From: a virus
IMG/VR virus record: IMGVR_UViG_3300025668_000036
Span: 1 to 27,867 of that record
Direction: 5' to 3' (one strand)
DNA length: 27,867 nucleotides
Shown: in pieces, positions 6,126-14,350 of the stretch
Numbering within the stretch: the stretch's first letter is position 1
Layout: the number at the start of each line of letters is the position of its first letter
Position numbers and translations under genes: made by a program
The notes under the pieces: model-generated
What the model saw: only the letters and a program-made list of their open reading frames with translations
Databases searched by the model: none
What the model was told of the DNA's origin: nothing

Positions 6126-6833
6126 ATGAATATAACTGATATATCACACTTACGATTAAACATAGATATTGATTTAGATAAACTCAAATCAGAGATGAGT
6201 ATTTTAAATGAATCCTATAAGTTTGAAAATTACCATTCCATATACTTTGGTGCTAAACGAAAGTATAAGAAGTCTTGGAGTGGTGTAGCATTGTACGGAA
6301 CTGATGGTAAGTTGTATGATGATTTCTATGAAGGGTTACACAATAGTGGTAAACCTATTCTACCAACTGAGTTAAAATCTAAACTACCTTATATGTACGA
6401 AGTTATAGATAAGGTATATGGTGATTCACCAACTACGATAGTTAGATTAATGAGGATTGCACCAAAGAGTTCATTACTCTGGCATTCGCATGTACAAGAA
6501 CATAAGCAGAGTGAATCTGAATTAATAATACAAATCCCTATTGAGATGCCAACTGGGTTTAAGTATTGTGTAGTTAATAAGGATGAGTTTAAATGGTGGA
6601 AACGTTTTAACAAACCAAATAGTTTTAAATCATTATCAGAATTTGAAATGGAAGAAGGTAATGCATATTACTTTAATTCGTACCACTACCACAACGTTTA
6701 TAATCCATCTAATCAGTATAGAACCGCATTAATGTTTTATGTTAATTCACAACATCCTTATGTAGATGGGTTACTAAAATCATCAATAGAAAAAGAAAAT
6801 GAAAAAAAGTTACAAAAACATTTGGTAGTTTAA
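6126..6833 (+). CDS. 2OG-Fe(II) oxygenase-like / aspartyl-hydroxylase-like protein (235 aa)
   Basis: The C-terminal half has the layout of a double-stranded beta-helix oxygenase: LLWHSHVQEH (H120, H122), an EEGNAYYFNSYHYHNVYNP stretch (H187, H189), and a following NQYRTALMFYV in which R199 could bind 2-oxoglutarate. The pattern is closest to aspartyl/asparaginyl beta-hydroxylase-like proteins, common in marine phages. Iron ligands are assigned by pattern only. The substrate could be a protein side chain or a small molecule. The gene follows tRNA-Glu and its 3' end holds promoter P6. Confidence 0.55.
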   Translation: MNITDISHLRLNIDIDLDKLKSEMSILNESYKFENYHSIYFGAKRKYKKSWSGVALYGTDGKLYDDFYEGLHNSGKPILPTELKSKLPYMYEVIDKVYGDSPTTIVRLMRIAPKSSLLWHSHVQEHKQSESELIIQIPIEMPTGFKYCVVNKDEFKWWKRFNKPNSFKSLSEFEMEEGNAYYFNSYHYHNVYNPSNQYRTALMFYVNSQHPYVDGLLKSSIEKENEKKLQKHLVV

Positions 6834-6852
6834 AATAAATGTTGTATATTTG
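6822..6852 (+). promoter_or_regulatory. Promoter P6 (core only)
   Basis: TTGG at 6822-6825 (inside the end of the oxygenase-like gene), N19 ending in GTTG, and TATATTTG at 6845-6852, the closest match here to the Bacteroidota -7 consensus TAnnTTTG. It drives the 84-aa gene and the tRNA-like pair that follows. Confidence 0.7.
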
Positions 6853-6869
6853 TATTATAAATAAGAGAT

Positions 6870-7124
6870 ATGAAATGGGATACTGTCCATATAAGTGATA
6901 AAATACATTGGTTAAAAGAAGTATTAATGAATTCAACAACCTATGAAAAGGGTGATGAGCATATTATAAACGCACTTATAACAGGTTCTAAGAATACCTT
7001 TAGTGGTGAGATGGGATTTGAGATACAACCACATCATATGAAATATATGAGAGAGTTATGGAATGAGAATATAGATACTCAGAAAGATAATTCAATCATA
7101 CTTAAATTGCGAGAGAAGAGTTAA
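6870..7124 (+). CDS. Hypothetical protein (84 aa)
   Basis: Family not recognised. The product looks soluble and alpha-helical, with HHMKYMRELW near residue 55. It follows promoter P6 by 17 nt. Its last 16 nt, including the stop, lie inside the first tRNA-Gly-like element, so processing of that RNA would cut the 3' end of this message. Confidence 0.6.
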   Translation: MKWDTVHISDKIHWLKEVLMNSTTYEKGDEHIINALITGSKNTFSGEMGFEIQPHHMKYMRELWNENIDTQKDNSIILKLREKS

Positions 7125-7180
7125 GAGAAACTCGCCGTACTTCCAGTACGGAGAAGTTGGGGCAGTTCCAACCTTTCGCT
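7109..7180 (+). tRNA. Aberrant tRNA-Gly-like RNA, copy 1 (anticodon TCC)
   Basis: A full cloverleaf folds: acceptor GCGAGAG/CTTTCGC; a D-like arm GAGTT/AACTC; an anticodon arm CCGTA-CTTCCAG-TACGG with T33, anticodon TCC and A37; a 4-nt variable region; a T-like arm GTTGG/CCAAC with a 7-nt loop; and discriminator T at 7180, usual for bacterial tRNA-Gly. The D-loop lacks GG and the T-loop is GGCAGTT instead of TTCRANN, so the normal elbow contact is missing. The six standard tRNAs nearby keep both signatures. No CCA is encoded. Confidence 0.7.
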
Positions 7181-7185
7181 CAAAT

Positions 7186-7257
7186 GCGGGAAAAGAGTTA
7201 AGAGAAACTCGTTGTACTTCCAGTACAAAGATGGTGGGGCAGTTCCACCTTCCCGCT
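7186..7257 (+). tRNA. Aberrant tRNA-Gly-like RNA, copy 2 (anticodon TCC)
   Basis: The same cloverleaf as copy 1, 5 nt downstream. Acceptor GCGGGAA/TTCCCGC, as in ordinary bacterial tRNA-Gly, D-like arm GAGTT/AACTC, anticodon arm TTGTA-CTTCCAG-TACAA, T-like arm GGTGG/CCACC, discriminator T at 7257. All three loops are identical to copy 1, whereas the acceptor, anticodon and T stems differ by paired changes (CC/GG to TT/AA; T-A to G-C). That is strong evidence for selection on the fold rather than decay. Confidence 0.72.
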
Positions 7258-7617: not shown

Positions 7618-7788
7618 ATGAGCAAAACAAAACCAAACATATTTGAAGGAAGAACTAAAGAATGGGATTCTGATGAGTGGCAGGGTAGGAGTAAACGACA
7701 AGTTGATAATAACGAATTGTTATCTGCCGTTTCTGTAATGGGGTTAATAGGGTTATCTATTATACTTGCTATAATAAGTTACATATAA
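7618..7788 (+). CDS. Small C-tail membrane protein (56 aa)
   Basis: A polar N-terminal half (GRTKEWDSDEWQGRSKRQ) precedes a hydrophobic tail, LLSAVSVMGLIGLSIILAIISYI (residues 34-56), so the protein is probably anchored by its C-terminus. It starts 1 nt after the upstream stop and shares a base with the next start (TAATG). Function unknown. Confidence 0.55.
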   Translation: MSKTKPNIFEGRTKEWDSDEWQGRSKRQVDNNELLSAVSVMGLIGLSIILAIISYI

Positions 7789-7940
7789 TGAGTGAAGAAA
7801 AAGAAATAGAAGAAATCCTAATGGAAGCTCACGCTCATAATATGAGAAATGAAGTTTTGGATTTAGCTAAAAAATTAATGGATGGTGGAACTAAACGAAT
7901 ACAGTCCTACCACCAAGCGTTTAATTCTTTAATCAGATGA
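7788..7940 (+). CDS. Hypothetical protein (50 aa)
   Basis: A small helical protein, acidic at the start (MSEEKEIEEILMEAHAH) and basic at the end. It is linked to both neighbours by TAATG and ATGA overlaps, which is the main support for the call. Confidence 0.5.
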   Translation: MSEEKEIEEILMEAHAHNMRNEVLDLAKKLMDGGTKRIQSYHQAFNSLIR

Positions 7941-13066: not shown

Positions 13067-14350
13067 ATGAGTAACAAAAGTCAAAGAAGTGTTTTCCTTC
13101 AAGCAAAGAAAAATGAGAATAAGGAGATTATCCTTATCGATTCCAATGGAACTGAGTTCTTCGTTCCACAATTAAATGAAGTTGGTTCTTCAATTTATAA
13201 GAGGTGTGTATCCGCCGCTAACAATCCAACTAAGTTCTGTATCAAAGCTAGAATTAGTGGAAACCTTTCAGATGGTTCTGTTGAGTTCAACAGAGTTCCA
13301 GGTGAGAAGTTCAATGGTTCTGAACCTGTAACAAACTTCAACAAACCGAATGGTGGGTTGGAACAATTTCAAATGAAACAAAAACCAACTATGGAAGTTG
13401 CAGATAAACCAATGGAAGAAGATTTCCTAAAGTTCATCCACAACGAATCCAAAGATTTAAAACCACAGATGTTGTTTATGAACGAACTGAAGTGGAAGTA
13501 CCTAATCAGAAACATTCTGAGAGGTAAAAATATTATGATGACTGGACCTGCTGGTTGTGGTAAAACTATGGCGGCTAAAGCAGCGGCTAACTCAATCGAA
13601 GGTTACTCTATGGAAATCTTCAACTTAGGTTCTACACAAGACCCTAGAGCTACTCTAATCGGTAACACTCAGTTCGATACTAAGAAAGGTACTGTGTTCT
13701 CTCCTTCACCATTTGTGAAAGCTATCCAAACTCCAAACACCGTTATTGTGTTGGATGAGATTAGTAGAGCACACCCTGAGGCTCACAACATTCTGATGAG
13801 TGTTTTGGATGCTGGGCAAAGATACCTCAGATTAGATGAGGCCGCTGATTCACCTGTTGTGAAGGTTGCTGAAGGTGTTTCCTTCATCGCATCGGCTAAC
13901 ATTGGTAATGAGTACACATCGACTAGACAATTGGATAGAGCTATCGTTGATAGATTTACAATCATCGAAATGGATACTCTAACTTCAGAAGAAGAAACTT
14001 CATTACTTATGATGATGTATCCTTCGGTTGATGAGGTTGTTCTTACTAATGTTGCTAAGATTACTTCAATGACCAGAAATGATGTGAAGAAAGAAGTTCC
14101 TACTCTTTCAAACTCACTATCGACTAGAACGGCTGTTGAGATTGGTTCACTACTCTATGATGGTTTCAGTTTGGCTGAAGCTGCTGAGATTACTATCTTC
14201 CCATTATTCGAAGATGCTGGTGGAGCACAATCGGAAAGAACTTTCATCAAACAATATGTTCAAAAGTTTGTTGGTTCTACTGAAGAAGAAAATCTATTCA
14301 ACGTAGAAGGTGAATCATCTGAAGAAACTGATATTTCAAACCCATTTTAA
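13067..14350 (+). CDS. MoxR/CobS-type AAA+ ATPase (427 aa)
   Basis: After about 130 N-terminal residues comes an AAA+ module: Walker A GPAGCGKT (160-167), Walker B VIVLDE (226-231), sensor 1 SAN (276-278) and an arginine-finger region QLDRAIVDRF (288-297). The tail is acidic. MoxR-family ATPases act as hexameric remodelling machines together with VWA proteins; the VWA protein at 10497 is the obvious partner. Phage copies are commonly labelled CobS, but a cobaltochelatase role is not supported here. A terminator follows at 14377. Confidence 0.88.
   Translation: MSNKSQRSVFLQAKKNENKEIILIDSNGTEFFVPQLNEVGSSIYKRCVSAANNPTKFCIKARISGNLSDGSVEFNRVPGEKFNGSEPVTNFNKPNGGLEQFQMKQKPTMEVADKPMEEDFLKFIHNESKDLKPQMLFMNELKWKYLIRNILRGKNIMMTGPAGCGKTMAAKAAANSIEGYSMEIFNLGSTQDPRATLIGNTQFDTKKGTVFSPSPFVKAIQTPNTVIVLDEISRAHPEAHNILMSVLDAGQRYLRLDEAADSPVVKVAEGVSFIASANIGNEYTSTRQLDRAIVDRFTIIEMDTLTSEEETSLLMMMYPSVDEVVLTNVAKITSMTRNDVKKEVPTLSNSLSTRTAVEIGSLLYDGFSLAEAAEITIFPLFEDAGGAQSERTFIKQYVQKFVGSTEEENLFNVEGESSEETDISNPF

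Follow-up and report, generated by a model that had tools for sequence, protein, structure and literature searches.

The virus record from IMG/VR analysed here, a stretch of 27,867 nucleotides that we call the window, encodes two adjacent tRNA-Gly-like RNAs that are missed by standard tRNA finders and that probably serve as dedicated glycine donors for DNA modification of the Mom type. The Mom protein of phage Mu adds a carbamoylmethyl (glycinamide-like) group to N6 of adenine. The observations behind our proposal are the fold of the two RNAs, its conservation and covariation among relatives, the retention of glycine identity bases, the disappearance of features needed for decoding, and a close genetic association with mom in several gene arrangements. 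From comparative sequence analysis we also favor, as the better bet, a more general proposition: that Mom glycylates adenine from glycyl-tRNA, and that a private pair of non-decoding tRNA-Gly molecules arose in some phages for this purpose. To our knowledge such a route would be the first aminoacyl-tRNA-dependent DNA modification.

An earlier note, made from the letters of the window alone, had described two adjacent cloverleafs with odd shared loops and compensatory stem changes, and its coordinates, loops, and stems proved accurate (Table 1). Each RNA, designated copy A and copy B, is 72 nucleotides (nt) long and forms all 22 pairs (7+5+5+5) of the cloverleaf. All loops are identical in the two copies (CTTCCAG in the anticodon arm, GGCAGTT in the T arm, AAGAGA in the D arm), and five stem pairs are altered on both sides (pairs 4 and 7 of the acceptor stem, two pairs of the anticodon stem, and one of the T stem), with one further acceptor pair going from G-U to G-C. 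Against dinucleotide shuffles, folding gives z-scores of -2.4 for copy A and -4.2 for copy B. Neither was detected in the window by ARAGORN or by Rfam, including RF00005, and at a lax threshold the single Rfam match in the window was a spurious group II intron. Both tools find the six normal tRNAs that the earlier note had placed nearby. Both copies retain U33 and lack G18G19, and the hallmarks of canonical elongator tRNAs (U33, G18G19, T54 T55 C56, and A58) are as a set not conserved in the family to which they belong.

That family was assembled by pattern scans, which yielded a first set of about 40 viral contigs of the window's phage type. A looser pattern added about 60 contigs from widely differing phages, some of them GC-rich; distinct tRNA-like relatives in viral contigs number about 80. 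All examples among the matches listed have the cloverleaf fold. The conservation of this fold is far beyond chance: pairing holds in 99.8% of base-pair cells of the first set (44 relatives), with 174 cells altered on both sides, and none of 500 shuffles equaled it in cells paired, in both-side cells, or in covariation score. The broad set has 96.8% of its cells paired and scores 0.83 for covariation, against 0.20 in shuffles. Stem decay without compensation, named in the earlier note as a refuting observation, was looked for among the relatives and did not occur. Among 31 first-set records, 23 carry two copies, two carry three, and six carry one; most copies belong to one of two types, A with the T stem GUUGG, present in most relatives, and B with GGUGG. 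A BLAST search with the pair returned zero matches among annotated phages. Since a pattern scan of host chromosomes (84,980 species) returned three hits, of which the two inspected lacked a cloverleaf and were chance-like, the family looks phage-borne. Intermediate forms, one with a normal T-loop, an encoded CCA, and an 8-nt anticodon loop (L012 5445-5516) and one with the T-loop TGCGATT (L001 4964-5035), hint at descent from an ordinary tRNA-Gly.

The bases held constant in these RNAs are those read by glycyl-tRNA synthetase (GlyRS). The Escherichia coli enzyme depends on base pair 1 (11-43x), base pair 2, C35 (105-1500x), C36 (21-41x), and U73, and hardly reads base 34 (PMC9908026). All five determinants (G1-C72, C2-G71, C35, C36, and U73) are present and invariant in the main set: G1-C72 and C2-G71 occur in 44 of 44 first-set copies and U73 without exception there, none of them having been required by the first search patterns. 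C35 and C36 were part of those patterns, and the scan was therefore repeated with the anticodon loop free; the same contigs came back, with C35, C36, and A37 in 36 of 36 distinct copies. Exceptions at base 73 are the A73 of two Mom-linked relatives (L211 and L221).

Decoding features have fared differently. U33 is missing from 41 of 79 distinct copies (present in 38) versus 6 of 213 canonical tRNAs of the same loci (Fisher p 1e-21, a value that overstates independence because the sequences are related). The earlier note had held that selection keeps both the fold and the UCC anticodon; covariation in relatives supports the former, but of the anticodon only C35 and C36 are invariant, position 34 being U, C, or A and position 33 any base. 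Positions 32 and 38 form a standard C-G pair, replaced in one relative by T32-A38. The D-loop lacks GG, and most copies have the T-loop GGC[AG]G (GTCAG in L202-L204); because the looser searches demanded GGGGC.G, invariance of the T-loop in the broad set arises partly by construction, and the motif is also kept among relatives found with the T-loop unconstrained. With the GlyRS determinants kept and U33, position 34, and the elbow not, the RNAs look charged but non-decoding, and thus selected for glycine charging rather than for decoding. The suggestion that they might be charged with glycine yet stay outside translation fits this pattern well, G18G19 and the T-loop consensus being likewise abandoned.

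Could they instead be ordinary supplementary translation tRNAs with an unusual elbow? The pair follows the normal tRNA cluster in the window, the anticodons would read glycine codons, and the window copies have kept U33; yet U33 is gone in half of the relatives, position 34 drifts, the C32-G38 pair forms, and normal glycine tRNA genes stand alongside in many relatives (tRNA-Gly(GCC) in many, and also tRNA-Gly(UCC) in L147/L149), so that we regard this explanation as quite improbable.

The connection with Mom came from a 173-kb relative (G009), in which annotation gave two Mom-family proteins. Matches to the Mom profile (PF25680) in relatives have E values of 1e-35 to 1e-59. In the first set, all seven records longer than 120 kb that have tRNA-like genes hold two or three mom genes. 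In the second set Mom is found in 25 of 44 tRNA-bearing records, and in 21 of those 25 the tRNA lies inside the end of the mom open reading frame (ORF) or 2-64 nt past the mom stop codon: GC-rich phages have it within the reading frame, L039/L042 2 nt past the stop, and L139/L128 17-64 nt past it. In the reverse direction, 80 loci were picked by their Mom protein, with the tRNA left out of account. Of the 19 closest, 18 have the tRNA at the mom 3' end; the remaining locus is truncated short of that spot. In two more distant loci a tRNA-Gly immediately adjoins mom, on its upstream side in L211 and on its downstream side in L221, with ordinary elbows and C or A at base 33, in addition to A73; the remaining loci of the 80, mostly marine, have no tRNA adjoining mom. 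In a tree of Mom proteins the tRNA-linked members fall into two deep clades, and tRNA and mom occur in at least five gene arrangements. Collinearity of the window with the Mom-bearing G009 (26 ORF matches, 35-70% identity) places the window phage in a Mom-bearing family.

Because the mom frame reads through the tRNA-like element in GC-rich phages, the element might be thought to act in cis within the mom mRNA, in processing, stability, or GlyRS regulation, rather than as a free tRNA. This appears improbable given that the element sits past the mom stop codon in L039/L042 and L128/L139, that some 70 kb separate it from mom in Bacteroidota phages, where it often has a promoter-like site of its own, and that U73 is kept and an encoded CCA often kept.

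Several results weigh against dedicated donation of glycine to Mom. Wherever both ends can be placed in Bacteroidota phages, a distance of about 66-70 kb separates mom from the tRNA pair, which accounts for the absence of mom from shorter contigs. No mom is present in the 27,867 nt of the window or in its longer 56-kb twin (L006); the window phage's own mom, if present, would lie beyond the contig end. Adjacent cases are clustered phylogenetically in few lineages, so that the linkage counts overstate independence. When 13 tRNA-bearing records were checked with a broader Mom profile, 12 remained Mom-negative (the thirteenth, G033, being a known positive), and the Mom-negative carriers include the complete Pelagibacter phage Mosig and contigs of 135-195 kb. 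Conversely, Mu, P12002L, Melnitz, Y8A, an Edwardsiella phage, and Listeria LP-114 have Mom without a tRNA-like gene, which is thus not essential for Mom; such phages could use host glycyl-tRNA. The structural comparison also tells on this side: next after Mom itself, the folds nearest to a model of G009 Mom are coenzyme A (CoA)-dependent GNATs, and the idea that tRNA-dependent transferases would be its nearest fold was rejected.

In Mosig-like cases either another enzyme uses the tRNA or Mom has been lost. The Mosig tRNA-like gene (L184 3283-3353, corresponding to Mosig 7782-7852 on the minus strand) is overlapped by the annotated Mosig_000011. If another enzyme is the user, the RNAs may be glycine carriers for a different phage acyl- or peptidyl-transferase, with Mom one of several users. 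Mosig and several large contigs do keep the tRNA without Mom, and many Mom-less carriers have a CTTCCAA loop with U33 retained, but Mom is the only recurrent neighbor found and another candidate that was looked for is missing, leaving this explanation unlikely, if the strongest of the alternatives. That candidate was a FemAB partner in a staphylococcal-like cell-wall role; no FemAB homologue (PF02388) was found in 31 tRNA-bearing records, many of them fragments, and the cell-wall peptide role was dropped. The decoy idea of the earlier note likewise gained no support. Phage tRNAs are known to counter tRNA-cleaving defences, and the anticodon loop is altered here, but a decoy or resistant substrate for host anticodon nucleases or GlyRS-dependent defences would leave the mom linkage, the kept charging determinants, and the free variation at positions 33 and 34 unexplained, and we consider it highly improbable.

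Donation of glycine to Mom would bear on the chemistry of the enzyme; we know of no demonstration of the donor of its glycinamide-like group. The AlphaFold2 model of G009 Mom (pLDDT 82) has as its best structure match Mu Mom 8bv8, 'inactive mutant S124A' (E 1e-13). The serine matching Mu Ser124 is kept in 45 of 47 Mom homologues, and the CoA pyrophosphate-binding motif [QR]xxGx[GA] is absent from the expected region in 44 of 47; both findings count in favor of our proposal. Three Mom paralogues are found in each of G013, G010, G030, and G039, and in Bacteroidota phages the two tRNA types, A and B, have a counterpart in two Mom paralogue families. As the donor, published work has assumed an acyl-CoA, for example glycyl-CoA (PMC7824862). 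Within the open-licence literature we found no paper tying Mom to a tRNA; newer work on the Mom donor may have appeared outside it.

Under our proposal, host glycyl-tRNA synthetase would charge both RNAs, as their conserved identity bases suggest, and the frequent loss of U33, the loop-shrinking C32-G38 pair, and the remodelled elbow would keep them off EF-Tu and the ribosome. A phage GNAT enzyme of the Mom family would then move the glycyl group from the RNA onto adenine of the phage DNA, at the N6 amino group, the product being N6-(carbamoylmethyl)adenine, which is known for Mom, or a close variant. The chemistry might pass through N6-glycyladenine followed by an intramolecular Smiles-type N-to-N shift, which we offer as a suggestion only. 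The modification would shield phage DNA from host nucleases. If true, this would link aminoacyl-tRNA metabolism to DNA modification and define a new class of phage tRNA outside translation, explaining why standard tRNA finders have overlooked it. Genetic linkage of a dedicated glycine tRNA to mom opens the question of the Mom donor to direct testing.

The surroundings of the pair show some regularities of their own. An 84-amino-acid ORF with no match in Pfam or PHROG precedes and overlaps copy A, and several relatives share this arrangement of a small ORF running into the first tRNA-like copy; most relatives of the first set have a Bacteroidota-type promoter-like site ahead of the first tRNA, at a distance of about 10 nt. 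Often found between two tRNA-like copies is a second conserved RNA of 60-115 nt, with a long outer stem and an inner hairpin whose loop is ATAAAACCG; a downstream ACCGGTTAT could pair with the hairpin loop (ACCG/CGGT changing to GCCG/CGGC). It had no Rfam match at the one locus checked. The window encodes an aspartyl/asparaginyl beta-hydroxylase-like protein (6126-6833) in the interval from the tRNA cluster to the small ORF. Farther on come a protein weakly similar to cobalamin-biosynthesis phage proteins (10497-12659) and a MoxR/CbbQ-like AAA ATPase (13067-14350), a pair also conserved in G009. The G009 phage has in addition a large sugar-nucleotide/glycosyltransferase cluster (L048 8045-19929 and L049) with NeuB, a carbamoyltransferase, and epimerases.

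Table 1. Positions of the tRNA-Gly-like RNAs and associated features, in the window unless a relative is named
Feature	Position	Strand	Basis and remarks
Non-decoding tRNA-Gly-like RNA (predicted), copy A	7109..7180	+	22/22 pairs; model R1, 96.1 bits; T stem GUUGG/CCAAC; U73 at 7180
Non-decoding tRNA-Gly-like RNA (predicted), copy B	7186..7257	+	22/22 pairs; model R1, 97.3 bits; T stem GGUGG/CCACC; U73 at 7257
Anticodon loop, copy A: CTTCCAG	7140..7146	+	Sequence; C32/G38 able to pair; C35 and C36 are glycine identity bases
Anticodon loop, copy B: CTTCCAG	7217..7223	+	Sequence
T-loop, copy A: GGCAGTT in place of TTCRANN	7161..7167	+	Sequence
T-loop, copy B: GGCAGTT	7238..7244	+	Sequence
Bacteroidota-type promoter-like site TTTG-N20-TATATTTG	6821..6852	+	Sequence; precedes small ORF and tRNA pair
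84-amino-acid ORF	6870..7124	+	Overlaps copy A; stop codon in the D arm of copy A
Second conserved RNA	L002 10082-10176	-	
Second conserved RNA	L008 1648-1742	-	
Second conserved RNA	L012 5721-5845	+	
Second conserved RNA	L037 11653-11742	-	
Second conserved RNA	L021, between its two copies		

The two RNAs share with phage supplementary tRNAs a genomic setting, next to six ordinary tRNAs, but differ in being missed by tRNA finders and in lacking decoding features as a family. FemXAB is a GNAT-fold transferase, and FemX, MurM, and Leu/Phe transferase combine a GNAT-like fold with the use of a charged tRNA as amino-acid donor. The role proposed for Mom follows the same donor principle, whereas the acceptors of those enzymes are peptides or proteins and the proposed acceptor here is DNA. 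The comparison with the non-proteinogenic tRNA-Gly(UCC) of Staphylococcus aureus, already drawn in the earlier note, is apt: that RNA feeds FemXAB, has GG18-19 replaced, and is thought to escape EF-Tu (PMC4052509). The phage RNAs likewise have GG18-19 replaced and keep the tRNA-Gly identity bases; the staphylococcal RNA, in contrast, is bacterial and feeds peptidoglycan, whereas those described here are phage-encoded, have often lost U33, have another T-loop, and are tied to Mom rather than to FemAB. Finally, the partner in the relatives is a clear homologue of phage Mu Mom (PF25680, PDB 8bv8) that keeps Ser124; unlike Mu, which has no such tRNA and for which an acyl-CoA donor is assumed (PMC7824862), these relatives have a dedicated tRNA-Gly accompanying mom.
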